Source of the DNA: Gordonia gummivorans
GTDB taxonomy: Bacteria > Actinomycetota > Actinomycetes > Mycobacteriales > Mycobacteriaceae
Assembly: GCF_022513585.1 (NCBI RefSeq)
Contig: NZ_JAKWBF010000012.1
Location: forward strand, 62,001-126,000
Direction: 5' to 3'
DNA length: 64,000 nucleotides
In this document: positions 12,568 through 51,575 of the stretch, piece after piece
How the letters are laid out: each line of letters starts with the position of its first letter
Numbering within the stretch: position 1 is the first letter of the stretch
Notes under the pieces: model-generated
Told to the model about the DNA's origin: nothing
Databases searched by the model: none
What the model saw: only the letters and a program-made list of their open reading frames with translations
Program-made: the position numbers and the translations under genes

Positions 12568-13010
12568 TCCGAAGAGTTCGGTGACCGACGCTCTGACCTG
12601 GGCAAACGCCACAGTGCTCTGTCCCTGAAAATAGGGGAAGAACTTCTTCCCCGGGGTTCACAGTCGTCCCCTAGAAATTCCTAGGGGAGGACTCCAAGAG
12701 TAGGGGACGAGTTTTCTTCCCCTAGTTTCTTGGCAGCAAAGAGCGCTTTCTGTGCTCGACGACGATGTTCGGAGTCCGAGGTCTGCGCTCGCCAGGGACC
12801 TCTGTGATGGTTGACCGCGACGGCGGCTTCGCCGACCTCCCACGCGCGTCGTCGGCGAGTCGTGGTTTCAGAAACCGCGTGTCTGGTCAGAAACCCGAGG
12901 TGCACCAGCGGTTTCTGGCGACCAATGCGGTTTCTGCGATGAGGCCGCACTCTTCCCGCCTCCACGATCGCCGACGACGTCGGCGAGTCGGTCGCTAGTT
13001 CGAAGAGTCT
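12568..13010. repeat. Composite dispersed repeat (family A core plus B-box tail), copy 1
   Basis: Starts at the stop codon of the DUF6928 gene with CCGAAGAGTTCGG. The core has a perfect palindrome GGGGAAGAACTTCTTCCCC (12634-12652), then GTCGTCCCCTAG, a GGGGAGGACTCC segment and a second palindrome arm GTTTTCTTCCCCTAG (to 12726). The tail at 12868-12936 carries two CAGAAACC boxes and two inverted GGTTTCTG boxes, then TTCCCGCCTCCACGATCGCC. The same order is seen at 51129-51575 and reversed at 18955-19295. The rest of the gap to 13254 shows no further structure I recognise. Confidence 0.85.
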
Positions 13011-13254
13011 GGCCTCCGGTCTGATCGGTTCCGCGCAGGCCCCATCAGCCTGATCTCCGCTCCCGCGCAACTTCGCAGAGTGCACCTGGAAGGAGTGCAA
13101 GAAGCGCTACAGCCAGAGCCTGAAACGTAGATGGCATGCGGAGACCGTACTTGGCGCAGAACGCTTTTCAGCGCATCGACCACCGATGGGGGATAACCGA
13201 GCACGATGCGTGGCGGATGGCCGGCCGGTCGGCGGACTTCCGTGAGGCGCCAAC

Positions 13255-13548
13255 TCAACGACCCACGGCGAACAAAGCCACCGACGACGCGGCGCCGGCG
13301 AGCATCCCCAGTAGCAGGCCCCAGACGATCCAGCGCAGCACCGCTCGGAAACGCAACTCCCACAGGGTCCAGCCGAGCCCGCCGGCGACCACCGCGACCG
13401 CCACCAGACCCAGCCACCGCTGCGCGTTGCCGACGAGGTCGTACAGCCCGATCAGGACCAGCGTCGCGAAGACCGCGCACGCCACAGCGACGATCAGTCC
13501 GAACAACCACGGAGTCGGTTCCGCGGGGTGTTCTGCGCCGCCGGTCAT
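13255..13548 (-). CDS. DUF2537 membrane protein
   Basis: 97 residues with three or four hydrophobic segments (PWLFGLIVAVACAVFATLVL, then WLGLVAVAVVAGGLGW, and WIVWGLLLGMLAGAASSVAL). This fits DUF2537, an actinobacterial membrane protein of unknown function. Its ATG overlaps the TrmH stop (ATGA at 13545-13548), so it is translationally coupled to the methyltransferase. The pair matches Rv0882/Rv0881 as I recall. Confidence 0.85.
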   Translation of the reverse strand: MTGGAEHPAEPTPWLFGLIVAVACAVFATLVLIGLYDLVGNAQRWLGLVAVAVVAGGLGWTLWELRFRAVLRWIVWGLLLGMLAGAASSVALFAVGR

Positions 13549-14399
13549 CCCTCCATCGTGCCGGACCGGACGCGTTCATAGAACGCGATCGCCGCGGCCG
13601 TTGCGACGTTGAGCGAATCGGTACCGCGACTCATCGGAATTCGTGCGCGCACATCGGTGGCGGCCATGGCCGACGCGGTGAGTCCCGGGCCTTCCGCACC
13701 CACGAGGAACCCGACCTTCTCCGTCCGCACCGCATCCGCAAGCGTCACCGCAGCGGGATCCGGAGTGAGAGAGACCAGGCGGAAACCCTGGTCGCGCACG
13801 GCGTCGAGACCAGAGGGCCACTCGTCGAACTGTGCGAACGGCACGAGCAGTGCGTGCCCCATCGACACGCGGACGCACCGCCGGTAGAGCGGGTCGGCGC
13901 AGCCGGCGCCGAAGAGGACCGCGTCGACACCGAGTCCCGCGGCGTTGCGGAAGATGCTGCCGATGTTCTCGTGATCGTTGACGCCCTCGAGGATCACCAC
14001 GCTGCGCGCGGATTCGAGAGCGGCATCGACGGAGAGGACCGGTGCGCGTCGGGCGACGGCGAGCACACCGCGATTGAGGTGAAACCCGACCACCTCGGCC
14101 ATCACGTCGGCAGTCGCTCGGTAGAACGGAACGCCGGCCAACGCACCGCTCCGCAGATCGGTGTCGAGTTCGTCGAGACGTTTGCCTACCCCGAGAAACG
14201 CGTGCGGCGCGAACCGCGACGCAATCATCCGCTGTGCGACCAGCACGCCCTCTGCGACGACCAACGCCTTTCCCGGCCGGCCACCCGGCAGCGTCGGGAG
14301 GTCGGGACGACGATCGACCGAGCTGAGGTCGCGGAAATCGTCCACCCGCGGATCGGCGGGGTCGTCGATGTCGATCACGTCGACGGCGAGTTCCGGCAC
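13545..14399 (-). CDS. TrmH-family (SpoU) RNA 2'-O-methyltransferase
   Basis: Transfers methyl from S-adenosylmethionine to a ribose 2'-OH in rRNA or tRNA. 284 residues from GTG 14399. The N-terminal substrate-binding domain (residues ~25-110, with GKALVVAEGVLVAQRMIAS) precedes the SPOUT knot, whose motifs are visible: motif 1 LEGVNDHENIGSIFRNA, motif 2 VGFLVGAEGPGLT, motif 3 IPMSRGTDSLNVATAAAIAFYE. The start was set at the GTG because sequence farther upstream overlaps the divergent acetyltransferase promoter. The target nucleotide is unknown. Confidence 0.88.
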   Translation of the reverse strand: MPELAVDVIDIDDPADPRVDDFRDLSSVDRRPDLPTLPGGRPGKALVVAEGVLVAQRMIASRFAPHAFLGVGKRLDELDTDLRSGALAGVPFYRATADVMAEVVGFHLNRGVLAVARRAPVLSVDAALESARSVVILEGVNDHENIGSIFRNAAGLGVDAVLFGAGCADPLYRRCVRVSMGHALLVPFAQFDEWPSGLDAVRDQGFRLVSLTPDPAAVTLADAVRTEKVGFLVGAEGPGLTASAMAATDVRARIPMSRGTDSLNVATAAAIAFYERVRSGTMEG

Positions 14400-14490: not shown

Positions 14491-14496
14491 GGAGGT

Positions 14497-15732: not shown

Positions 15733-15739
15733 CGGCGAA

Positions 15740-18720: not shown

Positions 18721-18954
18721 GCATAGCGAGCAGTTGGCGGCGTGTGAACAAGAACCGCTGATTTCGTACTGCCGACGCCGTCGGCAGTCGTGGAGCCGGG
18801 AAGGGCCGGGGGCGTCCGGTGAGACCACAGGAACACGCCGCCAATCCCGTCGGATGTCTGTACGCCCCAGCCCGACCACATCCACTGTGCACTTGACTGG
18901 GCTCCCAGGTACAGATTCCCGCAGGTCAGCAGGCCGAAAGCAGTATTCTTCGGA

Positions 18955-19295
18955 TCAGCGACCCACCCGCCGACGGCGTCGGCGATCGTGGAGGCGGAAT
19001 TGCGTGAGCCTGCTCAAGAATCCGCGCATGCGGCCAGAAACCTCAGGCCTGGCCAGAAACCGCTGGCGCGCATCGGGTTTCTGACCAGACACGCGGTTTC
19101 TAAGTCGCGACATGCCAACGCTCACTCGGACGGGTGGTCGTCCGGCCTTGAGCCGCACCGAAAGTAGGGGAAGAAACTCGTCCCCTACTCCTGGAGTCCT
19201 CCCCGCGGATTTTCTCGCGGACGACTCACAAGCAGGGGCAGAAAGTAGGGGAAGAACCTCCGCTACTTTCAGTGGTCCGGCGGCTCGCCGAGTCA
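18955..19295. repeat. Composite dispersed repeat (family A with B-box tail), reversed copy
   Basis: Reverse orientation relative to copy 1. From left: GGCGATCGTGGAGGCGG, then CAGAAACC boxes at 19039-19072 and GGTTTCTG/GGTTTCTA boxes to 19103, then the core at 19163-19270 with AGTAGGGGAAGAAACT and CTCGCGGACGACTC. The end reads GAGTCA at 19290-19295, which includes the stop codon of the phosphotransferase gene (TGA, 19293-19295). A degraded extra piece (CGTCGGCAGTCGTGGAGCCGGGAAGG) begins near 18778. The rest of the 18691-19292 gap shows nothing else I can support. Confidence 0.8.
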
Positions 19296-36766: not shown

Positions 36767-36797
36767 AAAGCGGCGGTCCGATCGCAGTCACCGTGCC

Positions 36798-36967
36798 CAC
36801 AAAAAGTAGGGGAAGAAACTTCTTCCCCGGGCCTTGGAGTCCTCCCCCAGAAATTTCCCGCGGACGACTACGAACCCCGGGGAAGAAGTTTCTTCCCCTA
36901 GATTTTGCGGCAGGACGCCGACGTATCTCCCCAGTTCACAGCGTCGCTCACCGAACGCTTCGAGTCA
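36798..36967. repeat. Dispersed repeat family A, copy between DUF2771 and cold-shock genes
   Basis: Reverse orientation. AGTAGGGGAAGAAACTTCTTCCCC at 36806-36828 is a near-perfect palindrome, then GGAGTCCTCCCCC, CGCGGACGACTACGAA, a second palindrome GGGGAAGAAGTTTCTTCCCC (36879-36898), CCCCAGTTCA, CACCGAACGCTTCGAGTCA. The last TCA (36965-36967) is the complement of the cold-shock gene's stop, so the element ends exactly there. It lies at a convergent junction. Confidence 0.9.
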
Positions 36968-37393: not shown

Positions 37394-37562
37394 CTGATCG
37401 GATCTGTCACAACAAAAGACGCCGTCACCCATCCTCACAAGAACAAGCTCGGACCGATGAGCAAGGCGTCTGGTTTGTCCATGGTAGCCAACCGGAGATC
37501 GGGCCGTCACGGGCATTACCGGTGCGCGTACCGCTCGACGTCGGATCGCGGTTGCAGTGCAT

Positions 37563-37568
37563 TACCGT
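37563..37568 (+). promoter_or_regulatory. Putative leaderless -10 box of the small membrane-protein gene
   Basis: TACCGT followed by GGAGGT and ATG 37575. This layout is the same as at 14485-14499 (TACGGT-GGAGGT-GTG). Confidence 0.45.
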
Positions 37569-37574
37569 GGAGGT

Positions 37575-37784: not shown

Positions 37785-37788
37785 GACC

Positions 37789-38328
37789 GTGACCGTCACA
37801 CAGCACATCGGCCCGGATCTGGCGCCCGCGTCGGACGCCGCCGCCCTACGCGCCGCCTACAGTTGTTTCCCCTCCGGTGTGGTCGCGGTGTGCGCGCAGG
37901 ACCCGGCCGACGCAGATTCGCGCGAACTGATCGGAATGGCCGCGAGCTCGTTCACCACGGTGTCGCTCGATCCACCGCTCGTCTCGGTCTGTGTGCAGAA
38001 CACGTCGAGCACGTGGCCGCGGTTGCGCGGGGCACACGCGGTGGGGGTCAGCGTCTTTGCCGGCGACCAGTCGCTGCTGTGCCGTCAGCTCGCCGGCGCC
38101 GCCGAACATCGCTTCGACGGGATCACCCCGCTGCTCGCCGACAACGGCGCCGTCTTCGTACCGGACGCGGCCGCCCACTTGTCCTGCACCATCCACAACG
38201 AGATCCAGGCGGGCGACCACACCGTCGTCCTGCTCGAGATCGAGACCCTGCGAGCCGACCCGACCGTCGAGCCACTTGTGTTCCACGCCAGCACTTTCCG
38301 CGCGCTGGAAGCCCGTAGAGGCGACTGA
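37789..38328 (+). CDS. Flavin reductase-like protein
   Basis: 179 residues of the FMN-binding split-barrel flavin reductase family (HpaC/ActVB-like). The family core is visible: YSCFPSGVVAVCA, LIGMAASSFTTVSLDPPLVSVCVQ, WPRLR, HLSCTIHNEIQAGDHTVVLLEIE. It should reduce free FMN or FAD with NAD(P)H to feed a partner oxygenase, but none is adjacent. GTG 37789. Its TGA overlaps the moaA ATG by one base (TGATG), tying it to the molybdenum-cofactor operon. Confidence 0.85.
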   Translation: MTVTQHIGPDLAPASDAAALRAAYSCFPSGVVAVCAQDPADADSRELIGMAASSFTTVSLDPPLVSVCVQNTSSTWPRLRGAHAVGVSVFAGDQSLLCRQLAGAAEHRFDGITPLLADNGAVFVPDAAAHLSCTIHNEIQAGDHTVVLLEIETLRADPTVEPLVFHASTFRALEARRGD

Positions 38329-39428
38329 TGACCGCGGTCGCGCTGGGGTTACCTACGCGTCGGGTGGCGCAGCCCGCGACGTGGAACCCGCGCGAGCCCG
38401 CCCCGGTCGACGGCCCGCTCGTGGACACATTCGGCCGCGTGGCTCGTGATCTGCGGGTGTCGGTTACCGACCGGTGCAACCTGCGGTGCACCTACTGCAT
38501 GCCCGCCGAGGGCCTGGACTGGATGGATACCGCCGACGTCCTGACCACCGAGGAGATGGTGCGCATCCTCACCGTCGCCGTGCGCGACCTCGGGATCGAG
38601 CGGATCCGATTCACCGGCGGTGAGCCGCTGCTGCGCCGCGACCTCGAAGAGATCATCGCGCGGGTCGCCGGGTTGCCGCAGCGACCCGAGATCGCGATGA
38701 CCACCAACGGGCTCGGGCTGACCCGGCGCGCCCAAGGACTCGTCGACGCCGGACTGAGCCGTATCAACGTCTCCCTCGACACCGTCGATGCGCAGCGCTT
38801 CGCCGAGATCACCCGGCGCGACCGGCTCGACGACGTCCTCGCCGGCCTGGCCGCCGCGCACGCCGCCGGACTCGACCCTGTGAAGGTGAACGCGGTGCTC
38901 GCCGACCACACCGATCTCGCCCGGTTGCCCGACCTGCTCGAGTACTGCCTGCGCCACGGCTACGAGCTACGCATCATCGAGCAGATGCCGCTCGACGCCG
39001 ACCACGCCTGGGTCCGTGGACAAATGGTGACGGCCGACGAGATCCTCGCCACGCTGAGGGGCACGTTCGACCTGCACGACGACCCGGCGCCCCGCGGCAG
39101 CGCACCGGCGGCCACGTGGATCGTCGGGGGCCGGCGGACCGCCTCGGGAAAACCGGCCCGGGTCGGCGTGATCGCGTCGGTGACGCGGCCGTTCTGTGGG
39201 GATTGTGACCGGACTCGCCTCACCGCGGACGGGTCTCTGCGCAACTGCCTGTTCGCCGAGACCGAGACCGATCTGCGCTCCGCACTGCGGACACTCCCCG
39301 ACCACGAGATCGATGCAGCGATCGCCGACAGCTGGCGTGCCAACGCCTGGGCCAAGGCCGCCGGGCACTCGGTCAACACCGCCGGCTTCCGCCAGCCGTC
39401 GCGGCCGATGTCGGCGATCGGCGGTTGA
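38328..39428 (+). CDS. moaA: GTP 3',8-cyclase, molybdenum cofactor biosynthesis
   Basis: Radical-SAM enzyme that starts molybdopterin synthesis by converting GTP to 3',8-cyclo-GTP. 366 residues. The N-terminal SAM [4Fe-4S] motif is CNLRCTYC (C50, C54, C57); the C-terminal cluster motif is CGDCDRTRLTADGSLRNC. The protein ends ...IGG: the double glycine at the extreme C-terminus is required in MoaA. ATG 38328 overlaps the flavin reductase stop. It is followed by moaD after 7 bp. Confidence 0.96.
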   Translation: MTAVALGLPTRRVAQPATWNPREPAPVDGPLVDTFGRVARDLRVSVTDRCNLRCTYCMPAEGLDWMDTADVLTTEEMVRILTVAVRDLGIERIRFTGGEPLLRRDLEEIIARVAGLPQRPEIAMTTNGLGLTRRAQGLVDAGLSRINVSLDTVDAQRFAEITRRDRLDDVLAGLAAAHAAGLDPVKVNAVLADHTDLARLPDLLEYCLRHGYELRIIEQMPLDADHAWVRGQMVTADEILATLRGTFDLHDDPAPRGSAPAATWIVGGRRTASGKPARVGVIASVTRPFCGDCDRTRLTADGSLRNCLFAETETDLRSALRTLPDHEIDAAIADSWRANAWAKAAGHSVNTAGFRQPSRPMSAIGG

Positions 39429-39435
39429 TCGCCCG

Positions 39436-39684
39436 ATGCGCCTGACCGTCCGCTACTTCGCTGCCGCGCGCGCGGCGTCGGGGACCGAGCACGACGTCGT
39501 CGAGATCGACGCCGACGCCACGCTCGGCGATCTGGAGCGGTTGCTCGCGGCCGAGAAGCCTTCTCTCGCTCCGGTACTGCAGCGCTGCTCCTATCTGCGT
39601 GACGAGGTCGCACTGTGCGACCGTGCTCGACGATTGGGCACGTGCGAAGTCATCGACGTCCTGCCCCCGTTTGCCGGTGGCTGA
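39436..39684 (+). CDS. moaD: Molybdopterin synthase sulfur carrier subunit
   Basis: 82 residues of the ubiquitin-like fold. MoaD carries a thiocarboxylate on its C-terminal Gly and passes sulfur to precursor Z within molybdopterin synthase. The sequence begins MRLTVRYFAAARAASG, and ends VIDVLPPFAGG, the essential GG tail. It follows moaA by 7 bp; the partner subunit MoaE is encoded in the convergent group on the other side of rpfA. Confidence 0.95.
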   Translation: MRLTVRYFAAARAASGTEHDVVEIDADATLGDLERLLAAEKPSLAPVLQRCSYLRDEVALCDRARRLGTCEVIDVLPPFAGG

Positions 39685-39698
39685 GGCCACATTTGCGA

Positions 39699-39714
39699 TG
39701 TGACCTTGCTCACA
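39699..39714. promoter_or_regulatory. Perfect CRP-type site in the rpfA upstream region
   Basis: TGTGACCTTGCTCACA is an exact match to TGTGA-N6-TCACA, the site of CRP and of mycobacterial Rv3676/GlxR-type regulators; Rv3676 is known to control rpfA in M. tuberculosis. It is 421 bp upstream of the rpfA start, and a TAGGGT (39721-39726) follows closely. Only one such perfect site was noticed in the window. Confidence 0.75.
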
Positions 39715-39959
39715 TAACGGTAGGGTAACGAGTAGGACACGAGACGACCACTAGCGCCGTGAACTGCAATGACACCAATTTCGGGCCGAAAGTCCCGAAT
39801 TCGACACCGAATTCAGCTTTACCGAGACGTGTGATTCGACCGAATGAACGACGTACTGTACGAGACGACCGCCCACGGGGGGTCACGACAAAGCAAACAG
39901 AACGATAACGTCCCGTCGGCCGCGCCGAGCCTCGCTCCGCTGACGAGACGGACCAAGAA

Positions 39960-40770
<811 letters not shown>

Positions 40771-40805
40771 TCGTCTGACGATCCGCCCACCCGGGCCCCT
40801 TGTCG

Positions 40806-40845
40806 AAGGGCCCCGCACGATGACTGATCCGTGCGGGGCCCTTTT
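40806..40845 (+). terminator. Rho-independent terminator after rpfA
   Basis: GGGCCCCGCAC (40808-40818) pairs perfectly with GTGCGGGGCCC (40831-40841) across a 12-nt loop and is followed by TTTT. It lies 36 bp after the rpfA stop, and a smaller GGGCCCCTT/AAGGGGCCC hairpin precedes it. Confidence 0.9.
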
Positions 40846-40894
40846 CCATTTCTCATCGACGGTCGCGGGGTGGCGACGAAGCTCCTCGCGAGCC

Positions 40895-41063
40895 CGAAAA
40901 AGTAGGGGAAGGAACTTCTTCCCCTGGTCTTGGAGTCCTCCCCCAGAAAATTCTCGCGGACGACTACGAACCTCGGGGAAGAAGTTCTTCCCCTAGATTT
41001 TGCGAGCACGACCAGACGCATTTCCCCAGTTCAGCGGGTGTCGGGCGACTCGCCTTCGAGTCA
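40895..41063. repeat. Dispersed repeat family A, first of two tandem copies downstream of rpfA
   Basis: AGTAGGGGAAGGAACTTCTTCCCC (40900-40923), GGAGTCCTCCCCC, CGCGGACGACTACGAA, GGGGAAGAAGTTCTTCCCC (40976-40994), AGATTTTGCGAGCACGACC, TTTCCCCAGTTCA, then CTTCGAGTCA. It is followed by a tail fragment (TTGCCGACGATCGTGGAGGCGGGAAGG, 41081-41107). Confidence 0.88.
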
Positions 41064-41249
41064 GCGTCCCTCCGTCGGCGTTGCCGACGATCGTGGAGGC
41101 GGGAAGGGTTGGCGGTTGGGCCGGTGGCCAGGATCGGGCCCCTGACGGTGGTCCTCCGGGTATATCCCAGAAGCGGACGCTGACGGGCCCGATCTCAGTC
41201 ACCGATTGCCGGTCGCCGCGTTCCGCCGACGGCGACGCCAGGAACATGC

Positions 41250-41423
41250 GCCCACAAAAAGTCGGGGAAGAAACTTCGTCCCCGACCCTTGGTGTCTTCC
41301 CCCCGAAATTTGTAGGGGACGACTGTGAACCTCGGGGAAGAAACTTCTTCCCCGAGATTTTGCGGGCACGACAGTATCGTGTTTACCCAGGTCAGAAGGC
41401 TGGTCACCGAACTCTTCGGGTCA
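41250..41423. repeat. Dispersed repeat family A, second tandem copy, next to moaE
   Basis: CCACAAAAAGTCGGGGAAGAA (to 41273), CGACTGTGAACC, GGGGAAGAAACTTCTTCCCC (41334-41353), TTTACCCAGGTCAG, CACCGAACTCTTCGGGTCA (41405-41423). The last TCA lies 15 bp, a whole number of codons, downstream of the moaE stop. The tract 40846-41435 between rpfA and moaE holds the two copies and the tail fragment; no gene. Confidence 0.88.
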
Positions 41424-41435
41424 GCGATCCGCGAA

Positions 41436-41870
41436 TCAGGCCGACCCGACCCATTCGTCGCTGCCGTCGACAAAGAACTGATGTTTCCAGACCGGCAGTC
41501 GGGCCTTCACCTCGTCGACCAGGCGCGCGCAGATCTCGAAGGCGGCGCGACGATGATCGGCCGCGACCGCCACGATGAACGCGGCGTCGCCGACCACGAG
41601 GTCGCCAACGCGGTGCGACACCGCAACCGCACGCACCTGAGCATCTTTGACGATCTCGCCGACCACTTCATCGAGCACGTTCGGCGCGGTGGGATGCGAC
41701 GAATACGAGAGCGCCGTCACTCCCCTACCGCCGTCGTGGTCGCGCACCGCACCCACGAATCCGACGATGGCTCCGGCCCGTCCGCCCGCGGCGTCGGCGA
41801 CCCACGCCTCATGTTCGACCAAATCAATGGATGATTCGGCGACGGCCGTGCGGATCTGCGGCGAACTCAC
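41436..41870 (-). CDS. moaE: Molybdopterin synthase catalytic subunit
   Basis: 144 residues. MoaE binds MoaD and converts cyclic pyranopterin monophosphate to molybdopterin. The family core is visible: [59 protein letters not shown], and the active-site segment [22 protein letters not shown] with the catalytic Lys. GTG 41870 overlaps the mog stop (ATG/GTGA type overlap, 41867-41870). It is the last gene of the minus-strand group. Confidence 0.95.
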
Positions 41871-42367
41871 CGGTGGTCACCGCCGTGAATCTGGTCGATG
41901 GCGTGGTGCACGACGCCGGCCAGCACCTCCAGGCCGTCCCGGACACCACCGGTGGAGCCGGGCAGGTTCACCACGAGGGACGAGCCGGCCACGCCCGCTG
42001 TTCCTCGCGACAGCACAGCCGTCGGAACGGCCGGCAGGCCCGCGGCGCGGATGGCATCGGCGAGACCCGGAATCTCGAAGTCGAGCAGTTGCCGGGTCTC
42101 CTCGGGAGTCCGGTCGGTCGGGGTGAGACCCGTTCCGCCGGTGGTGATCACGAGGTGTGCGTCGGCGTATAGGGCCGCTCGGATCGCCTCGCCGACCGGT
42201 GGCCCGTCCGCGACGACGATGTGCTCGTCAACCACAAATCCCTGCGCAGTCAGCCATTCGGCGATGATCGGCCCGGACCGATCCAGGTATTGGCCGCGAC
42301 CGGCCCGCGTCGACGCGACCACGATCCAGGCGCGCAGTTCACGGCCGGGTGCGGCGTCGTCAGACAT
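41867..42367 (-). CDS. mog: Molybdopterin adenylyltransferase (MogA/MoaB family)
   Basis: 166 residues. It adenylylates molybdopterin before molybdate insertion. Motifs: [40 protein letters not shown] (the TGGTG nucleotide loop), and [22 protein letters not shown] 42367 is used; it overlaps the moaC end by 8 bp. The downstream overlap with moaE and upstream overlap with moaC show a coupled operon. Confidence 0.93.
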
Positions 42368-42866
42368 CGTCGTCCCGCCGCCAGGTGCCCGACTTGCCAC
42401 CGGTCTTCTCCAGCAGGCGGATGTTGTCCATGTGCGCGCGGCGGTCGACGGCCTTCACCATGTCGTGCAGGGTGAGGCCGGTGACAGCGACGGCGGTCAA
42501 CGCTTCCATCTCGACTCCCGTCTGGCCCGACGTCGAGGCCGTAGCGGTGACCTCGATCCGATCGTCGCCGATGACGAAGTCGATCTCCACCGCGGATAAC
42601 GCCAGCTGGTGGCACAGCGGGATCAGCTCGGACGTGCGTTTGGCCGCCATGATGCCCGCGATGCGGGCAGTGGCAAGGACGTCGCCCTTGGGCAGTTTGG
42701 CCTGACTGAGCAGGTCGATGACCTCGGCCGTGGTGCAGAACGTCCCACCGGCCACAGCACGCCTGTTGGTGCTCTTCTTGCCGCCCACGTCGACCATCCG
42801 GGCCGTCCCCGACTCGTCGATGTGGGTGAGGCCCGGGTCGCGGTCGGCGGAACTGGCCGACGACAT
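42360..42866 (-). CDS. moaC: Cyclic pyranopterin monophosphate synthase
   Basis: 168 residues. MoaC rearranges 3',8-cyclo-GTP to cyclic pyranopterin monophosphate. Active-site motifs are intact: [49 protein letters not shown], and [26 protein letters not shown] (the Lys and Asp are catalytic). ATG 42866 lies 4 bp after the stop of the 74-residue gene upstream. Confidence 0.95.
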
Positions 42867-42870
42867 CAGA

Positions 42871-43095
42871 TCAGCGGTTGATGACCGTCTTGGCCTGCAC
42901 GAACGGCAGCTCGTCCTGCGGCAGCGGGAACTCGACGTCACCGAACGGCGACAGCGCACCCGAGATGTTGGTCGCGAACTCGGAGACTGCGTGCTCGCCG
43001 TCCGCGAACGGCCAGCCGTTGTCGACGTAGCGCTTCTTGCCGGACTTGTCGGCGCCGGCTTCTTCGGTCACGGTTTCTTCGGTCACAGCCAGCAT
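42871..43095 (-). CDS. Conserved small protein leading the moaC operon (Rv0863-like)
   Basis: 74 residues, soluble and acidic at the N-terminus, with a conserved C-terminal part ([21 protein letters not shown] and [19 protein letters not shown]). It corresponds in position to the small gene between moaC2 and the helicase-like gene in M. tuberculosis, as I recall. Function unknown. ATG 43095 was chosen over an upstream GTG at 43227 because the extension overlaps the divergent kinase promoter and is basic and untypical. It is 4 bp from moaC, so a Moco-related role is possible by association. Confidence 0.65.
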
Positions 43096-43249
43096 TCTGC
43101 CATGGCGCCTGCGACCGCACCGACCTCCTCGGCACCCAAAGATCGTCCAGTCCGTCCCACCCTGACCAACTGAATGAGTCAGCACCACGATCATCAGGCC
43201 ATTCGGTATCGTCCCTCTCGTCCCCACCCACTTGACCAGGGAGATCGAG

Positions 43250-45451
43250 GTGGCGCTGAGTCCCGGAAGTCAGATCGCCGGCTATCGCGTTCTCTCGCAG
43301 CTGGGTCAGGGTGGCATGGGCGCGGTGTATCTCGTCGACAACCCGTCGCTGGAACGACGTGAGGCACTGAAGGTCATCTCGATCGCAGGCGCGGGCGACC
43401 CGAGCTTCCAGCAGCGTTTCACCAACGAGGCCAGAACCGCCGCCAAGCTGAACCATCCGAGCATCATCACGGTCCACCAGTACGGCATCGACAACGGGGC
43501 GCCGTGGTTTTCGATGAGCTACATCGAAGGGCGGGATCTTTCGGCCGAGCGTCTCCGGCCCGCCGAGGTCGCCCAGGTCGTCGGCCAGGTGGCCGACGCG
43601 CTCGACTACGCGCACCGGCACCGGGTGATCCATCGAGACATCAAGCCCGCCAACATCATCGTGACCCGGGAACCCGGCGGGGTCGAACATGGCGGGATCG
43701 AACATGGCGGGGGTGCCATCGAACGCACCGTGGTGCTCGACTTCGGAATCGCGAAACTTGCCAACACGGCGGGACTGACCGGCACCCAGGGCTTCATCGG
43801 CACACTCGCGTACTCCGCGCCCGAGGTGATCGACGGCGGCGAGGCAACACCCGCCGCGGATCAGTACTCACTAGCCGCAACGGCGTACGCGCTGCTGACC
43901 GGGCAGCCGCCACTGGTGGGCAGCACACCGTCGGCCGTGGTCATGGCGCACGTCCGCGGTGCGATCACGCCGGTCTCGCAACTGCGGCCCGACCTGGCCG
44001 CCACCGACCATGTGTTCGCGCGGGCATTTGCGCGCAACCCCGCCGACCGATTTCCGAACTGTCGCGCGTTCGCGGCCGCTCTCGGCAGCGCATTGACCGC
44101 TCAGACGCAACCGTTCACGCCCCCACCACCGCAGACTCCGCCACCGCCGACCCCGCACCACGATCGCATTTCCACTCCGCGGCCGATACCCGGCGCGCCG
44201 ACGCCTCCGCCACCCGCGCGCCGTCGAACCGGCCTCATCGTCGCGTCGGTGGCCGCGGTCATCGTGCTTCTCGTGGCAGCCGGTGTCGGGGTGTTCTTCT
44301 GGAACAAGTCCCGATCGGGGTCCGACGAGACATCCACCACCGTGGCCGCGCAGAAGCTCATCGCGACTGACGGCGGAGCATCATGCGCGGCGCAGGGCGG
44401 CACGCTTCGATGCTGGGGCAACAACAATTTCGGACAACTCGGCGACGGAACGACGACCGAACGCCCCGCGCCCGTCTCACTCAGCGGTATGACCGAGATC
44501 ACCGATATCAGCATCGGCGCGTTCCGCAAGTCGGACAACACCTGGCCGGCGACGACCTGCGCGGTGTCTGCCAGTAAGGCATTCTGCTGGGGCGACAACG
44601 CCTTTGGTCAAGTCGGTGACGGTCAGACCGGCACCACCGTGTCGACACCCACCCAGGTCGGCTCATTGAGCGACGTCACCGCGATCTCTACCGGCTGGGG
44701 CACCACATGTGCGATTTCAGCCGGCGAGGCATATTGCTGGGGCGACAACGACCGCGGACAGCTCGGGGCGTCGACACCCCGGACGTCGACAAGCCCTGTC
44801 AAGGTTCCCGGTCTCACCGGAGTGCGGGCCATCGCAACCGGATTCGGCACCACCTGCGCGATCGCCGACACCGGCCTGCATTGCTGGGGCGACAACCGAA
44901 CAGGGCAGGTCGGAAACGGCTCGACCTCCACGGAACCAGTGGCACCGACGAAGGTCGCGCTGGACAAGGTCACCTCGGTGTCCGTCGGCGGCTACAACTA
45001 CGACCCGAACACGGAAGACAGTGCGGACGGCGAGTACCGCCGCACAACATGCGCCACCGCCGACGGCAAAGCCTATTGCTGGGGTGACAACACGTACGGT
45101 CAGATCGGCGACGGCACGACCACCCAGCGCACGTCACCGACGCCCGTCAACGCACTCGACGGCGTGACGTCGATTGCCACCGGGTGGACTTCCACGTGCG
45201 CCGCCGCACAAGGCAAAGCCTATTGCTGGGGCGACAACGCCGATGGCCAGCTCGGGTTCTCGAGCGACGGGCAGGTGGCAATACCGCACGAGGTGACCGG
45301 ACCGGAAGGTCTGACGACGGTGGCCGCAGGTTTCGGGACTGCCTGCGCACAATCGGACTCCGAAGTGTTGTGTTGGGGCAACAACAGCAACGGCCAAGTG
45401 GGGAACGGCAACACGACCGACCAACCCACGCCGCACAAGGTGTCCTTCTAG
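43250..45451 (+). CDS. Membrane Ser/Thr protein kinase with extracytoplasmic seven-repeat RCC1-like propeller
   Basis: 733 residues from GTG 43250 (AGGGAG 6 nt upstream; TTG 43232 is the alternative). The cytosolic PknB-type kinase domain (~10-270) has [18 protein letters not shown] (Lys), [16 protein letters not shown] and YSAPEV. A proline-rich juxtamembrane stretch (~285-320), one membrane helix ([20 protein letters not shown]) and an exported domain follow. That domain has seven repeats, each with the motif CWG(D/N)N..GQ(L/V/I)G and a second Cys 10-15 residues before, i.e. a seven-bladed RCC1/BLIP-II-like propeller with a Cys pair per blade. It lacks PASTA domains. A signal-binding role is inferred. 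The stop codon is made in part by a MITE-like element. Confidence 0.88.
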
Positions 45452-45610
45452 GGCGTGTCTCCCAATGCCACTGCGAGGGATTGGCGGAGTCGATTGTGCC
45501 CTGGGAAGGCGGAGCAGAGAGCAATAGCGGCGCTATTGTGATTCGACGACAACGAGCCAGGGTGCAATCGAGCCGCCAAGACCCGCAAAGGGCATTGGGA
45601 GACACGCCCT
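45450..45610. mobile_element. 161-bp MITE-like element with 20-bp perfect terminal inverted repeats
   Basis: The ends AGGGCGTGTCTCCCAATGCC and its exact reverse complement match 20/20. Inner arms also pair (ATTGGCGGAGTCGATTG...CCCTGG with CCAGGG...CAATCGAGCCGCCAAG), and the centre CAATAGCGGCGCTATTG (45522-45538) is a perfect 8+1+8 palindrome, so the whole element can form one long hairpin. It encodes nothing. The first base A is inside the TAG stop of the kinase gene (45449-45451). No clear target duplication can be read; a TA/TG-type flank is the best candidate. A parent transposase is not in the window. Confidence 0.85.
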
Positions 45611-45612
45611 GG

Positions 45613-46722
45613 TCAGCTGTTTTCCCCTCGCGCCACGACGTCCCACCGCTCGGTCACATCACCTCGATCGTCGACGATCATCAGCTCGTCGACCAGGTTG
45701 ACGGCGGTACAGACATGATTGGGAATCAACCGGATTCGTGATCCGATCGCCGGAATGCCTTCCGAAGCCGCACCATCGGGGAACTCGACGACGGCATGAT
45801 GTTCCGACAGCGACGTCACGCGGGCGTCGAGGTGATCCGGCAGACGACCGAACCCTGTTGTCCACGAAGGACGGTCCGCGCCGAGGATCTTGCTGCCAGC
45901 ATCGACGACGACGCGGTGGCCGGTGCGGTGGACCACCGTCGTCACCGCCCACAGGCTCGCGTCGTGGATGCCGCACGAGCACATCTCCAACTGCTGCGCG
46001 TCGTTGAACGGGTAGACACCGGGCCGGATCTCGGTGAGTACCCCACCGTCGGCGAAGTCCAGGGTCGGTGTCGAGCCACCACTGCGCACCCGAGGCTCGA
46101 TCCCCTCGTCGGACAGTCGTTGCGCGGCAACGGAAAGCACCCTCGCCTCGTCGTGAGCCGCGTCGCGCCGGGTATCACCGATCCCATATCCGTGCCCAGG
46201 AAAGGTGAACACACCCACCACGTCGAGACCCAGATCTCTTGCCGCCGAGGCTACTTCACCTGACCGCTCGGGCGCCACCCCGGTGCGGTGCTGCCCCGAG
46301 TCGACCTCGATCACCACCTCGACCGACCGAGTGCCCAGCTCACCGGCCAACTGGCGCGCGCCCTCGACGGAATCGACCCCGACCCGAACGCGCACCTGGT
46401 CGGCCAGCGCGGCCAGCCTGCGACCCTTGGTGCCGGTCACCCACAACGGATAGGCGATGAACAGATCACGACATCCGGTCGCGGCGGCGTGCGCGGCGAA
46501 CACCTCGGCCTCGCCGATCGTCGCCACGGTCAAACCCGTCGCGCCGGCAGCGATCTGACGCCGCGCCACCTCGAGGCATTTGTGCGTCTTCGCGTGCGGT
46601 CTCAGTTCCAGTCCCGCGGCGCGGGCCACCCCGGCCACCCGATCCAGATTGTGCTGCATTCGTGCCGCGTCCACGGCCAGAAACGGAGTGTCGGGCCCGG
46701 CCGGCACAGAATCAACTGGCAT
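45613..46722 (-). CDS. D-threonine aldolase/D-serine dehydratase-like PLP enzyme
   Basis: 369 residues of the fold-type III (alanine-racemase-like) family that includes D-threonine aldolase and D-serine dehydratase (DSD1). The PLP lysine is in LRPHAKTHK (about residue 45); the barrel continues with VDSGQHRTG and GVFTFPGHGYG. The C-terminal domain has the metal-binding motif IPNHVCTAVNL (His and Cys) typical of these enzymes. The specific substrate cannot be told. It is convergent with the kinase gene across a MITE-like element, and divergent from the helicase-like gene (60 bp). Confidence 0.85.
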   Translation of the reverse strand: MPVDSVPAGPDTPFLAVDAARMQHNLDRVAGVARAAGLELRPHAKTHKCLEVARRQIAAGATGLTVATIGEAEVFAAHAAATGCRDLFIAYPLWVTGTKGRRLAALADQVRVRVGVDSVEGARQLAGELGTRSVEVVIEVDSGQHRTGVAPERSGEVASAARDLGLDVVGVFTFPGHGYGIGDTRRDAAHDEARVLSVAAQRLSDEGIEPRVRSGGSTPTLDFADGGVLTEIRPGVYPFNDAQQLEMCSCGIHDASLWAVTTVVHRTGHRVVVDAGSKILGADRPSWTTGFGRLPDHLDARVTSLSEHHAVVEFPDGAASEGIPAIGSRIRLIPNHVCTAVNLVDELMIVDDRGDVTERWDVVARGENS

Positions 46723-46769
46723 GGGCCCAGCCTGTCACCCGCGACCCCGCAATCGGAACCCGGCGTCGG

Positions 46770-46775
46770 TAGACT
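46770..46775 (+). promoter_or_regulatory. Putative leaderless -10 box of the helicase-associated gene
   Basis: TAGACT is 7 nt before ATG 46783; there is no Shine-Dalgarno sequence. Confidence 0.45.
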
Positions 46776-46782
46776 CGATCGA

Positions 46783-49113
46783 ATGAGTTCGGATGACCAG
46801 CGGCGCAGCCTCGCGCAAGACCTGGCCGGCCGATCCGACGACGCACTCGCCGAGCTGCTGGCGCAGCGTCCCGACCTCGCCTCGCCACCCCCGCAGGGCA
46901 GCGCCGTCCTCGCACAGCGCGCGCTCGCGCCCGCGTCGCTCGCACACACCGGCGAGGATCTCGACCTGTTGAGCGTTGCCGTCCTCGAGCAGGCGCTGGC
47001 GCTCGGCGCTCGTCGAAACGCAGGCAGTTCGCACGCGACGGCCGGCGCCATCGTCACCGCGATCGGCAATCGAGCTGATCCGCAAGACATCGCAGACCGC
47101 ATCGACCTGCTGACACTCCGCGCCGTTCTCTGGACCGAGGGCGCCACGCTGCAGGCCGGGGCCCATGCCGACGCCGCGCTGCCGTGGAAGGCCCATCACC
47201 TCACCGGCCTGCTGTGCACGCGTACACCCGAGACCATCAGCGCCCTCCTCGAGAAGCTCGACGACCGCCAGCGCGAACTGTTGCAGACGCTCTCTCGCGG
47301 CCCGGCACTCGGCCGCAGCCGCGACGCAGGGCCGGCAGCCGACCCCAACGCACCCATCCCACGTCTCATCGAGGCCGGCCTGCTGGCCCGCGTCGACGAT
47401 CACACCGTCGAACTCCCACCGACCGTCGGCACGATCCTGCGTGGCGAACCACCACTGCGCACCGACGATCTGCGCCCACCAGTGCTGCACGAGCCGGGTG
47501 CGAAACCGCGATTCAGCGCCCGCGCGGTCGACGACGCGGCGGGTGGCGAGGCGCTCGAACTGATCCGCCACATGACGAGCCTGCTGGGTGTGCTCGGCAC
47601 GACGCCGGCCTCGGTGCTCCGCAGCGGCGCGCTCGGAGTTCGCGAGCTGCGCCGCCTGGCCAAGGTCACCGGCCTGGATCAGGGCCGCGTTGCCCTTCTT
47701 GCCGAACTCGCCGGTTACCTGCGCCTCATCGACGCCGGATTCCCGGAACCACCGCCGGCGGGCGACACCGGGGAACAAGCCTTTGCGCCCACCGCGTCCG
47801 CCGACAGCTGGCTGCACCAACCACGCGAAAGGCAGTGGGCCGCACTGCTCGACGCGTGGTTGCACATGCCCCGCAACGCATGGCGGGTCGGCGAGCCAGG
47901 TATCGACGGGACCACCCTGGCGGCGCTCGGCGGCGAACTCCACGACGCCTACGCCCCCATTCACCGACGACTCGTCCTGTCCACCCTCGCCGATGCCCGC
48001 CCGGCGGTCACTGTCTCACCGGAGGCGACCACCGCGGCGCTACAGTGGCGCCGACCGCGTCAGATGCGCCGCTTTCTGCTGTCGACGGTCCGCGAAACCC
48101 TGGATGAGGCAAGACAACTCGGTGTCGTCGCACACGGGGCGCTCACCGCGGTCGGCCGGGCGGCCATCGCCGACGGCGATCCCACTGACATCGAGGCCGC
48201 CACCCACAAGGCCATGCACGCGGCCCTCCCCGAACCCGTGGACCACTTCCTGACCCAAGCCGACCTCACGTTGACCGTACCCGGACCGATGACACCCGAA
48301 CTCGCCGAACAGGTGGAACTCGTCGCCGATCTCGAATCCGGCGGCGCCGCTTCGGTTTACCGCGTCTCCGAGGAGAGCGTACGACGCGCCCTGGATGCCG
48401 GGCGCAGCAGCAGCGAACTGGTCGCCATGTTCACCACCCATTCCCGCACACCGGTCCCCCAGTCGCTGACCTACCTGATCGAAGACGTCGGCCGCAAGCA
48501 TGGCCAACTGCGGGTCGGGATCGCATCCTCGTTCATCCGATGCGAGGACGCCACCACGATGGCGGCCGTACTTCGTTCTCCGGCAGCCGAACCCCTCGCC
48601 CTGCGCGCCCTGGCGCCGACCGTCGCCGTATCACCGTCGGAGCTCCGTGCCGTGCTCGACCAACTGCGTGCAGCCGGATTCGCGCCGGCCGGCGAGGATT
48701 CGTCGGGCACCATCGTCGACCTGCGGCAGCACGGCAGCCGGGTGAACGTTGCGCGCCAGAACCGGCACCTGCCACCCAGACGCACCCCACCGTCGGCCGA
48801 GCAGATCCGAAATGTGGTCAACCGCATGCGATCTCACGACCGCGCTGATGCCGCCACGCCGGCCGGCACCTCGCGCGCCCCGGTTCGGGCGGTCGGCGGC
48901 GGCGAGAGCTCGACGGCCCTGATCCAATTGGCGCTACGGGCCAACCGGCGCCTGCGTGTCGGGTACGTCGACGCCCAGGGATCGGCCAGCCGCCACGTGG
49001 TGAGCCCACGCACCCTGGGCGCGGGACAGCTCGTCGCACTCGAAGATGGCACCGACGACGAACAACGCTTCTCGCTGCACCGGATCACCAGCATCGAACT
49101 GCTGGACAACTGA
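46783..49113 (+). CDS. Helicase-associated large protein (XPB/Ssl2-like helicase family, Rv0862c-like)
   Basis: 776 residues. Annotated in relatives as a helicase C-terminal or DNA-binding-associated protein: repeats of helical, wHTH-like segments (e.g. RRLAKVTGLDQGRVALLAELAGYLRL near 300) and a C-terminal WYL-like end (LIQLALRANRRLRVGYVDAQG, ending FSLHRITSIELLDN, last ~70 residues). No Walker A motif was seen, so it is not itself a helicase. In M. tuberculosis the equivalent lies next to the ercc3/XPB helicase; here they are 4 kb apart. It may assist XPB in DNA repair (inferred). Confidence 0.72.
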   Translation: MSSDDQRRSLAQDLAGRSDDALAELLAQRPDLASPPPQGSAVLAQRALAPASLAHTGEDLDLLSVAVLEQALALGARRNAGSSHATAGAIVTAIGNRADPQDIADRIDLLTLRAVLWTEGATLQAGAHADAALPWKAHHLTGLLCTRTPETISALLEKLDDRQRELLQTLSRGPALGRSRDAGPAADPNAPIPRLIEAGLLARVDDHTVELPPTVGTILRGEPPLRTDDLRPPVLHEPGAKPRFSARAVDDAAGGEALELIRHMTSLLGVLGTTPASVLRSGALGVRELRRLAKVTGLDQGRVALLAELAGYLRLIDAGFPEPPPAGDTGEQAFAPTASADSWLHQPRERQWAALLDAWLHMPRNAWRVGEPGIDGTTLAALGGELHDAYAPIHRRLVLSTLADARPAVTVSPEATTAALQWRRPRQMRRFLLSTVRETLDEARQLGVVAHGALTAVGRAAIADGDPTDIEAATHKAMHAALPEPVDHFLTQADLTLTVPGPMTPELAEQVELVADLESGGAASVYRVSEESVRRALDAGRSSSELVAMFTTHSRTPVPQSLTYLIEDVGRKHGQLRVGIASSFIRCEDATTMAAVLRSPAAEPLALRALAPTVAVSPSELRAVLDQLRAAGFAPAGEDSSGTIVDLRQHGSRVNVARQNRHLPPRRTPPSAEQIRNVVNRMRSHDRADAATPAGTSRAPVRAVGGGESSTALIQLALRANRRLRVGYVDAQGSASRHVVSPRTLGAGQLVALEDGTDDEQRFSLHRITSIELLDN

Positions 49114-49204
49114 GCTCGAGAAACTCGCTCGACCGCCGTCCACCGCGCGCGTACGGTGGTCGAGCCACACCCGTGGCGAATACCTCACGACCACAGGAAG
49201 AATC

Positions 49205-50416
49205 ATGAACACCCAGTTCCCGGTACCCCTTTCCGGCGCGTCCGCCTCCACCCTGCTGTGGGCCGACGAGACGTCGATCGAGTACCAGGCGCTCAACCAG
49301 CTCCGCCGGGTGTCTGCTCTGCCGTGGGTACACGGGGTCCGGGTGATGCCCGACGTCCATGTCGGCAAGGGCGCCACCGTCGGCTCGGTCATCGCCATGC
49401 GCGATGCCGTGTGCCCGGCTGCGGTCGGCGTCGACATCGGATGCGGAATGGCAGCCGTCCGAACCGATCTCACCGCGTCGGACCTGCCCGACGACCTCTC
49501 CGGACTGCGCGGCGCCATCGAGGCGAAGGTGCCGGTGGGCTTCACGTCGCACAAGGAGCCGGTCAACATCCGGCGACTGCAGGTCGGCGGCGGCTGGGAC
49601 GGATTCTGGTCCCGGTTCGCTGATCTGCATCGCGGTGTGCGGCAACTCGATACCCGCGCCGGCAAGCAGATGGGCACCCTCGGTGGCGGCAACCACTTCA
49701 TCGAGATCTGCCTCGACGAGCCCGCCGACGGTGCCGAATCCCATGTGTGGATCATGCTGCACTCGGGGTCGCGCAACATCGGCAAGGAACTCGCCGAGCG
49801 GCACATGTCCATCGCGGCGAAGCTGCCCCACAACGCGGACCTGTCCGATCGTGATCTTGCCGTATTCGTCTCCGGGACAGCGGAGATGGATGCCTACCGA
49901 CACGACCTCGACTGGGCGCAGGAATACGCTGCGCGCAACCGCCGGGTCATGCTGGCGCTTGTGTGCAGTGCGGTCCGGGAGAGCTTCGCGCAGCGGCGCG
50001 TCGTGTTCGACGAGCCGATCAGCTGCCACCACAACTACGTGGCCACCGAGCACATCGACGGCCTTGAGTTGCTCGTCACCCGCAAGGGCGCCATCCGCGC
50101 CGTGGCAGGCGAGCTGGGGTTGATCCCCGGGTCGATGGGTACCGATTCGTACGTGGTGCGCGGCCTCGGGTCGGTCGACTCGTTCTACTCCGCGTCGCAC
50201 GGCGCGGGGCGGACGATGAGCCGGAGCAAGGCACGCAAGATGTTCACCGCCGAGGACTTGGTGGCCCAGACCCAAGGTGTCGAGTCGCGGAAGGACGCGG
50301 GTGTGGTCGACGAGATCCCGGCCGCGTACAAGGACATCGATTCGGTGATCGCCGCGCAGACCGATCTCGTGGAGGTCGTCGCCCGCCTGCGCCAGGTGGT
50401 GTGTGTCAAGGGTTGA
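49205..50416 (+). CDS. rtcB: RNA-splicing ligase RtcB
   Basis: 3'-phosphate/5'-OH RNA ligase, 403 residues. Metal ligands and GMP-site motifs are present: VGVDIGCGMAAVRTD (Cys metal ligand), GTLGGGNHFIE (N-H), ISCHHNYVA, IPGSMGTDSYVVRG, and the guanylylated His in SASHGAGRTMSR. ATG 49205 follows AGGAAG. No archease gene and no RtcR-type regulator is near; a TetR gene follows 91 bp downstream. The RNA substrates are unknown. Confidence 0.93.
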   Translation: MNTQFPVPLSGASASTLLWADETSIEYQALNQLRRVSALPWVHGVRVMPDVHVGKGATVGSVIAMRDAVCPAAVGVDIGCGMAAVRTDLTASDLPDDLSGLRGAIEAKVPVGFTSHKEPVNIRRLQVGGGWDGFWSRFADLHRGVRQLDTRAGKQMGTLGGGNHFIEICLDEPADGAESHVWIMLHSGSRNIGKELAERHMSIAAKLPHNADLSDRDLAVFVSGTAEMDAYRHDLDWAQEYAARNRRVMLALVCSAVRESFAQRRVVFDEPISCHHNYVATEHIDGLELLVTRKGAIRAVAGELGLIPGSMGTDSYVVRGLGSVDSFYSASHGAGRTMSRSKARKMFTAEDLVAQTQGVESRKDAGVVDEIPAAYKDIDSVIAAQTDLVEVVARLRQVVCVKG

Positions 50417-50507
50417 GATGGTTGCCCGGGGTCGGAGGCACCTCCGATCCCGGGTGGCCTTCGGCGTGGACGTAAACTGGTCGGGTGCAACGTTTCCGAG
50501 GAATCCG

Positions 50508-51131
50508 ATGACCGACGCGGACTCGCCGTGGGAATTGCCCGGCAACCTCGACCCCACTGCGCGCAAGATCGTGACCGCCGCGCGAATCCGATTCTCCGAG
50601 AGCGGATTCGCCGACACCACAATGGAAGACATCGCGCACGCAGCCGGGGTGGGGGTCGCCACGGTCTACCGGCGATTCGGCCACCGCAAGCGCATCGTCC
50701 GCTACGCGATCATCGACGAGGCGATCCGGCTCGGAAATCTCCTGTCGGCTGCGGGCGCATCGGCGTCGGGCCCCGAGGAACTTGTCGTCGAGACTTTCAC
50801 CGCCTTCGTCCACGAAGCCTCACAACCCAAACTCCTCACCCGAAATCTGCGCGAGTCCGGCGAGGCCGCCGAATTGTCGGCGTTCCTGAACGACGCGACG
50901 ATCATCAGCCTCGGCCGCTCGACAATCGCCACCAGCCTCCGGCCGTGGCAAGAGGCGGGCCGACTGCCCGCCGACCTCGACCTCGTCATCGTCGGCGAGA
51001 TGATCTCCCGCCTGATGAACTCCCTCATCGAAGCGCCCGACGACAGCGCCATCCCCATCGCCGACCCCGCCGCAGCACGGCGCTTCGCGCAGACCTACCT
51101 GGTCCCGCTGCTCCAAGCGACCGGTCGCTGA
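50508..51131 (+). CDS. TetR-family regulator
   Basis: 207 residues. Helix-turn-helix at ~18-65 (RKIVTAARIRFSESGF, MEDIAHAAGVGVATVYRRFG), then a helical domain that is typical of TetR proteins. ATG 50508 follows GAGGAATCC. It is downstream of rtcB and is the only regulator in this stretch; it could control the DUF2236 genes or rtcB. A strong palindrome was not seen nearby. Its TGA stop begins a family A repeat. Confidence 0.85.
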   Translation: MTDADSPWELPGNLDPTARKIVTAARIRFSESGFADTTMEDIAHAAGVGVATVYRRFGHRKRIVRYAIIDEAIRLGNLLSAAGASASGPEELVVETFTAFVHEASQPKLLTRNLRESGEAAELSAFLNDATIISLGRSTIATSLRPWQEAGRLPADLDLVIVGEMISRLMNSLIEAPDDSAIPIADPAAARRFAQTYLVPLLQATGR

Positions 51132-51575
51132 CTCGAAGAGTTCGGTGACCACAGCGCTGAACTGGGCAAATACGTTAGTGCCGTGCCCGCAGAATCTAGG
51201 GGAAGAAGTTCTTCCCCGGGGTTTGTAGTCGTCCGCGAGAAATTTCTGGGGGAAGACACCAGGGGTAGGGGACGAGTTTTCTTCCCCTAGTTTCTTGTGC
51301 GGCGGATAGCGCCTTCTGTGCTCGACGTGCGAGCAGATCTCAGCAGACCGTCGGGCGAGAAGGGTTTGCGCGGGCGCCCAAGATCGTGGTCGCGACGGCA
51401 GCTTCTCCCACCCCCGGGGCGCGTCGTCGGCGTGTCGCGCTTTCAGAAACCGCGTGTCTGGTCAGAAACCCGAGGCGCACCAGCGGTTTCTGGCCGCACC
51501 GGCGGTTTCTGGCAACAAGTGCGGTTTCTGTAGCGAGGCCGCACTCTTCCCACCTCCACGATCGCCACCACGAGG
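51129..51575. repeat. Composite dispersed repeat (family A core plus B-box tail), copy at the TetR stop
   Basis: Starts with the stop codon of the TetR gene: TGACTCGAAGAGTTCGGTGACC, then CTGAACTGGGCAAATACG, GGGGAAGAAGTTCTTCCCC (51199-51217), GTAGTCGTCCGCGAGAAATT, GTTTTCTTCCCCTAGTTTCTT. The tail 51450-51530 has CAGAAACC x2 and GGTTTCTG x3, then TCTTCCCACCTCCACGATCGCC. This order matches 12568-13010. The remaining gap to 51650 is AT-richer and could hold the promoter of the DUF2236 pair. Confidence 0.88.

Follow-up and report, generated by a model that had tools for sequence, protein, structure and literature searches.

A 64,000-nucleotide stretch of a Gordonia genome (hereafter the window; bases 62001–126000 of contig 16 in a 5.31-Mb assembly of 111 contigs) carries copies of a palindromic repeat behind the stop codons of unrelated genes. 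These copies belong to a high-copy, species-level family of cassettes, which is characterized by a fixed left end, a CTGA target, insertion at native stop codons, head-to-tail arrays and exchangeable hairpin interiors. Its sequence strongly suggests that the left end, termed module a, is descended from an IS110 element. We lean, with some reserve, towards the view that the whole units are lineage-specific non-autonomous cassettes derived from an IS110-family (ISArsp3-like) element and equipped with hairpins resembling bidirectional terminators.

The defining parts of the family are the two ends and not the GGGGAAGAA palindromes. Each unit starts with the left module a, about 45 nucleotides (nt) long and beginning with YYCGAAGAGTTCGGTGACC, continues with a variable interior and often terminates in a right module D of about 60 nt, which consists of a hairpin followed by GGGTCGCTGA. 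The left-end model yielded at least 98 matches in this genome, scoring between 36 and 62 bits among the matches listed, and the right-end model yielded 138. In the sampled loci, comprising 437 kb around the matches, 145 a matches were found, 132 of them full. Of the latter, 43 are positioned directly after a D and are array-internal, and 89 lead an array or stand alone. For 71 of the 132 units a D lies downstream in the same locus, in 69 cases at 158–702 nt; the remaining two pairings, over 18 and 22 kb, join different arrays. The units of 158–702 nt are non-coding and, since they encode no recombinase, can at most be non-autonomous derivatives of an IS110 element. Because the left-end model was built from CTGA-bearing copies, it is biased towards these: 109 of the 132 full a modules read CTGA without re-positioning, whereas in 23 the motif is not at the modelled place, one of these having been shifted onto CTGA.

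Among 58 other Gordonia genomes the best left-end match reached 26.1 bits, and 36 of the 58 contained a weak match at E 0.01 or better; at the stored loci, most of these weak matches lack CTGA and resemble coding sequence. Two loci, L119 (genome G003) and L128 (G016), display CTGA followed by an a-like start and are possibly further IS110 ends or lone cassettes. The repeats gave no match to Rfam at gathering level, and the whole unit was unmatched in plasmid and phage records, in which the D–a junction gave one plasmid match (E 0.09) and none in phages. The exact left-end pattern had no match in a genome-contig collection that may not include this genome, and a seventeen-base left-end pattern matched 9 times in viral contigs, about as often as expected by chance according to our estimate. 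No description of the family was found in the literature, by searches not aimed at IS110-derived non-autonomous elements.

A preliminary description of the window had reported six related copies at 12568, 18955, 36798, 40895, 41250 and 51129, and all six were recovered at about these positions. Their similarity is far above chance, as BLAST of the 12568 copy against its own genome returned 97 matching pieces (self-match E 5e-243, next best E 5e-193). The copies at 18955, 36798, 40895 and 41250 are in fact located on the minus strand, with stop-proximal ends at 19292, 36964, 41060 (an internal unit) and 41420. At the 18955 locus a second, internal unit begins at 18954, so that this locus and the 40895/41250 pair each represent a two-unit head-to-tail array. 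Many copies exceed the proposed length of about 170 bp, as they have the right-end module D downstream. The units are composed as follows:

12565..12567, plus strand: native TGA stop codon of the DUF6928 gene (11791–12567), the last three bases of the CTGA site
12568..12612, plus strand: left-end module a (left-end model match R1/A1)
12626..12737, plus strand: GGGGAAGAA palindromic core, interior module m1 (read in the sequence; interior census)
12860..12958, plus strand: interior module m3, AGAAACC / GGTTTCT hairpin repeats (sequence; interior census)
12948..13008, plus strand: right-end module D with its hairpin, then CTAG and TTCGAAGAG, a partial second a (model R2 match at C16:74948-75008)
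18770..18954, minus strand: second unit of the phosphotransferase array, with a (18907–18954), interior m9 and a partial D-like end
18955..19292, minus strand: unit directly behind the GTGA stop (19293–19295) of the phosphotransferase gene, with truncated a, variant core, m3 and D
36787..36964, minus strand: unit of a (36920–36964) and core (36797–36910), no D (model match, folding)
36965..36967, minus strand: native TGA stop codon of the cold-shock-domain gene (36965–37393); in relatives the stop is at the same position, without element
40888..41060, minus strand: second unit of the moaE array, head-to-tail, with a adjoining the CTGA at the end of the first unit's D, followed by core
41061..41420, minus strand: first unit of the moaE array, with a, core, m6 hairpin and D ending in CTGA (models)
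41436..41438, minus strand: stop codon of moaE, 15 nt behind which the first unit begins
51129..51131, plus strand: TGA stop codon of the TetR gene (50508–51131; gene call, Pfam)
51132..51567, plus strand: unit of a, core, m3 and truncated D (left- and right-end models)

Four of these arrays thus start directly behind a stop codon, while the moaE array begins 15 nt behind it. By Pfam the anchored genes encode unrelated products (DUF6928, APH phosphotransferase, cold-shock domain, TetR_N and MoaE). The phosphotransferase copy is preceded by GTGA instead of CTGA and, because its left end is cut to about 9 nt, is not counted by the left-end model.

Enrichment at stop codons extends to the rest of the genome. 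With genes called by a simple codon-usage caller written for this analysis, 46 of the 89 leading left ends are positioned exactly at the last base of a stop codon; a further 7 are found 1–10 nt and another 11 are found 11–25 nt behind one. A co-directional gene precedes 81 of the 89 leading units; a downstream gene was called for 80, and in 56 of these it is convergent. CTGA directly precedes 73 of the 89. At the 46 stop-anchored ends the information content at C, T, G and A (positions −4 to −1) amounts to 1.36, 2.6, 1.58 and 2.6 bits, and at the other 43 leading ends to 0.94, 1.65, 1.0 and 2.08 bits; position −5 contributes 0.07 and 0.02 bits, respectively, and no signal is present further upstream. 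Stop-anchored ends read CTGA in 44 and TTGA in 2 of 46 cases, compared with CTGA at 100 of 217 background stops. Insertion at stop codons had been noted in the preliminary description, and the anchoring itself is borne out. However, since CTGA is equally conserved at leading ends that are not at stops, the stop as such is probably not recognized.

Background sites drawn from the same stretches as the element loci allow the two contributions to be compared. Outside the elements, 278 CTGA sites at stops or in intergenic regions comprise 100 stops, 65 sites behind a co-directional gene and 113 that are neither; the corresponding figures for the 73 element sites are 44, 22 and 7. The stop share is therefore 60% (44/73) for elements and 36% (100/278) for the background (binomial p 2e-5). 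Sites on the opposite strand account for 7 of 73 element and 113 of 278 background sites. If sites ahead of genes are set aside, the stop shares approach each other (67%, 44/66, versus 61%, 100/165), and the simplest account is accordingly a CTGA target combined with loss of insertions in or ahead of genes. The anchoring thus largely reflects CTGA targeting and survival behind genes.

Comparison of syntenic sites, suggested in the preliminary description, indicates that the stops are native. For 20 stop-anchored genes other Gordonia genomes were examined; orthologs were available for 17, and 3 had none. At 15 of the 17 sites (7/8 and 8/9 in two sets) at least one relative has the same terminal residue, and the downstream stretches printed for the relatives (72–110 nt) contain the element in no case. 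In the two exceptions, the DUF6928 gene and a gene on contig C36, the end differs by one or two codons, the stop of the DUF6928 relatives being located two codons earlier. At the C24 site, the stop is followed at once by the next gene in three relatives. Since relatives share the protein end without the element, the stop predates the insertion. Taken together, the proposal of a dispersed, target-specific, non-autonomous element at the stops of unrelated genes is supported.

The mechanism of spreading, previously regarded as unknown, need not be so, since the left end equals an IS110-family end. Module a is identical in 21 of 21 positions to the end of a multi-copy element of genome G075 (six contig ends) and in 19 of 21 to the end of the L300 element, whose transposase is a full IS110 protein (NF033542, 250.8 bits at a cut-off of 140; PF01548; PF02371). 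This genome itself contains only two matches to its own transposase fragment, located at the contig ends C16:1-206 and C65:1-341. In both, a full, internal a lies 72 nt away from the stop codon of the transposase gene, of which the 3′ end follows in reverse orientation. The fragment matches the last 39 positions of the IS110 model NF033542 with E 7e-6, which is below the cut-off, and in plasmids tblastn retrieved proteins with the annotation IS110-like ISArsp3 family. Full relatives of the transposase, seven in all and 56–61% identical over the fragment, are present in genomes G065, G030 and G021, L300 being one of them; these elements terminate in CCTAATCCGAAGAGTTAGGTGA or closely similar sequences.

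Within a dispersed repeat, CTGAGGTGCGAG, the intact relatives are flanked by ..CT on one side and CT.. on the other, and thus also occupy CTGA. The repeat hosting them reads CTCCCTGAGGTGCGAG and is split between CT and GA, leaving CT at both ends, which is read on the strand opposite to the transposase; in the cassettes, CT lies within CTGA at both ends. The non-coding ends of the relatives measure 31 and 256 nt, matching the long-LE (left-end) layout of the IS110 group (PMC11208160). Their opposite end is laid out as CCACGA, hairpin and CT. By sequence, D may represent this other end: the similarity of its D3 variant to the L304 end is reached by 0.025% of 4000 background windows, and that to the L300 end by 0.7%. 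A second dispersed repeat, GGCCTTCGAGGCTC..CACCTCAGGCAGCGG, is located at 28372–28432, 30429–30511 and 55047–55109 of the window and resembles the insertion repeat of IS110 relatives in other Gordonia genomes.

In the preferred reading, the cassettes would have retained the transposase-stop-side end of an IS110-type element as module a, to which they are matched by sequence, and D as the putative other end. The recombinase would be supplied in trans by a few full elements. As suggested by IS110 biology and by the junctions of the intact relatives, a cassette would be inserted after the CT dinucleotide in a CTGA site, with no further target duplication. Because many Gordonia stop codons read CTGA and insertions inside or ahead of genes would be lost, as the site statistics indicate, the survivors would be those at or shortly behind stops in co-directional orientation. 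The D end regenerates CTGA, and units could for this reason stack head to tail, the structure seen in the arrays. With a core hairpin and a T-rich tail facing each way, termination would probably be bidirectional and insertion behind a gene harmless or even useful.

IS110 elements of other bacteria are steered by a guide RNA. A more far-reaching and clearly more doubtful version would have an RNA-guided IS110 recombinase read little beyond CTGA and write swappable, head-to-tail stackable terminator cassettes behind stop codons in trans, amounting to a genome-wide remodelling of 3′ ends with a logic similar to integron cassettes. Unusual in the family itself are its scale, its strict 3′-end placement and the possible use of an RNA-guided recombinase. 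In REP-like repeats, anchoring at stop codons has been ascribed to function; if the IS110 derivation is right, such anchoring is connected with the targeting of an IS110 recombinase. The cassettes would further provide a natural example of non-autonomous IS110 cargo that is moved in trans, reaches high copy number and uses a target that is very short on one side, and would bear on the specificity of bridge-RNA recombinases in nature.

Several observations weigh against this derivation. An intact transposase of this type is unassembled in this genome, fragments being present only at the contig ends of C65 and C16, and the C65 fragment is out of frame at its tail. The full IS110 gene on contig C17 is of another kind, with flanks that contain no convincing a or D (8.3 bits with the a model). 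The G075 element was called IS110 by eye from its last codons, and the protein search gave no G075 match. The commoner variants D1 and D2 resemble the ends of six relatives only at the level of 2–20% of the background, inspection of 20 further regions did not reveal the other end of this genome's own element, and the assignment of D as an insertion-sequence end thus relies on moderate similarity. Moreover, D is absent from 61 of the 132 units, and covariation in the core is uninformative, with 6 compensatory cells only. Growth of arrays at the stop-proximal side was unsupported (20 arrays for, 8 against, p 0.18), as was an age gradient along them. Known IS110 targets span about 11 bp, but conservation on the left side here is confined to CTGA. 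On the right, YYCGR follows CNGA in 23 of 44 D ends without a following full a, far too often for native sequence, and this flank is not fully explained.

The target loop of IS621 base-pairs asymmetrically around the core, with about seven bases on one flank and two on the opposite flank (PMC11208160). By analogy, such pairing would suit a target without upstream signal, with YYCGR as the long half. This is doubtful, since so many native sites are unexpected by chance, as estimated by us from base composition. No native pool of solitary CTGAYYCGA targets emerged, with 2 occurrences at stops, one of which resembles a diverged a, and 10 in intergenic regions, several lying inside units. Alternatively, the flanks could be remnants of older units.

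It is unlikely, though the best of the alternatives, that IS110 elements merely exploit a repeat that was already present, as is the case with REP, and that the cassettes spread otherwise, e.g. by gene conversion. IS110 elements do target repeats (PMC11208160), the intact Gordonia relatives lie inside dispersed repeats, and cores are interrupted by other insertion-sequence ends at the ends of contigs C31, C57 and C59. However, relatives without cassettes have the same 21 bases as the end of their insertion sequence while the host flanks change, and a therefore belongs to the insertion sequence and not to its target.

Transposition of a single-stranded HUH-type element inserting 3′ of CTGA, either Y1 (IS200/IS605, REP/TnpAREP) or rolling-circle (IS91/Helitron-like), appears still less probable. 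The D hairpin ahead of the terminal CTGA would then serve as right-end signal, and over-run would generate the partial second a. The left end located precisely behind a tetranucleotide, the absence of signal further upstream, the right-end hairpin 7–8 nt before CTGA, the partial a at right ends and the lack of any visible duplication would all fit. Against it, the left end equals an IS110 end, and the Y1 transposase domain PF01797 was detected in none of five genomes (this one and four relatives), with 5 of 14 controls positive. The Y2 HUH transposase domain PF04986 (IS91/Helitron) was likewise found in 0/5 genomes, but as the control was positive nowhere, this result is uninformative.

A selected 3′ regulatory or terminator element, kept at stops for its function with mobility old or irrelevant, is very improbable. 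The placement behind co-directional and facing convergent genes and the T-tailed hairpin in both directions would fit, as would the core-like hairpins found singly between convergent genes of G009, G015, G028 and G034. Against it, CTGA is also strictly kept where no stop is present, orthologous sites of relatives lack the element, the interiors are interchangeable, and matches elsewhere in the genus are weak throughout.

The GGGGAAGAA core is present in 89 of the 132 units. Other interiors are built from hairpin modules, whose occurrence ranges from 2 to 27 units; in 12 units no module string was recognized. The two GGGGAAGAA palindromes of the preliminary description do exist, yet they are the arms of one near-perfect hairpin of 114 nt: folded as single-stranded DNA, 36797–36910 forms a single long hairpin (−43.4 kcal/mol, z −10.3). 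The palindrome CCGAAGAGTTCGG proposed alongside them is not conserved as such, position 12 containing only 0.12–0.29 bits. The core arms are hairpins themselves, and at least 5 T within the 10 nt behind them were counted in 57 of 62 unique cores in forward and 49 of 62 in reverse direction. The cores thus show the G+C-rich hairpin and T run of intrinsic terminators; a general terminator scan of 36700–51700 returned 9 sites compared with 7.1 expected, 4 or 5 of them within cores. Judging from these features a terminator role is plausible, and the core probably acts as a bidirectional intrinsic terminator, so that the family supplies candidate bidirectional terminators for Gordonia. In the D hairpin, compensatory changes were found at 2 pairs. 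More distant versions of the core occur as isolated intergenic hairpins, with neither a nor D, in G009, G015, G028 and G034. The hairpin is therefore older than the cassette family, which may have picked it up. The other insertion-sequence ends at C31, C57 and C59 (loci L182, L180 and L187) interrupt or abut the core hairpin, and C31 and C59 share one such end.

Among known systems, the IS110 group (IS621 with its bridge RNA and the ISArsp3-like Gordonia members) resembles the cassettes in a left end that is identical or nearly so, the core CT at both junctions of the relatives, targets in repeats or at CTGA, and relatives' junctions in which neither inverted repeats nor duplication were seen. 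The cassettes differ in encoding no recombinase, in their hairpin cargo, arrays and more than 100 copies, and in conserving only CTGA on the left side. Like ERIC and other miniature inverted-repeat transposable elements, they are short, non-autonomous and intergenic with an imperfect long palindrome; unlike these, they lack terminal inverted repeats, are stop-specific and have an exchangeable interior. MIRU of mycobacteria reportedly have a DTGA target in the description of 1997. According to PMC12548453, MIRU are small mobile intergenic repeats at the TGA of gene boundaries with tandem units, but they lack palindromes, contain small open reading frames that overlap adjacent start or stop codons, and are inserted at start codons, overlapping by 4 nt. 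The cassettes have no open reading frame, long palindromes, a C before TGA and a position at 3′ ends, and thus do not qualify as MIRU. REP/BIME/REPIN elements with TnpAREP are likewise palindromic, extragenic and mosaic with a tetranucleotide near the end, and 446 of 4072 predicted REPs of E. coli lie within 15 nt behind stops (PMC8266576 and PMC12306157). In contrast, the cassettes have CTGA instead of GTAG, different ends, no Y1 transposase that could be found, and exact instead of loose anchoring at stops.

A second stop-anchored repeat, consisting of 21-nt tandem copies of TGACCGTGCGTCCCAAACCGT, is located at 5206–5309 (minus strand) and 4192–4269 (plus strand) of the window and recurs in the stretches C35:212400-218700 and C41:16700-20800. 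The array at 5307 begins within the stop codon of the gene upstream, as do those at two of the other loci, and the 4192 array begins a few bases behind a CTGA stop. Furthermore, a c-di-AMP riboswitch (RF00379, 48.9 bits) occupies 39949–40128, just upstream of the gene at 40135–40770. Finally, six repeats of about 62 nt (TGCTGGGGCGACAAC) are found at 44381–45432 within the gene at 43250–45451, which by eye appears to encode an RCC1-type repeat protein.

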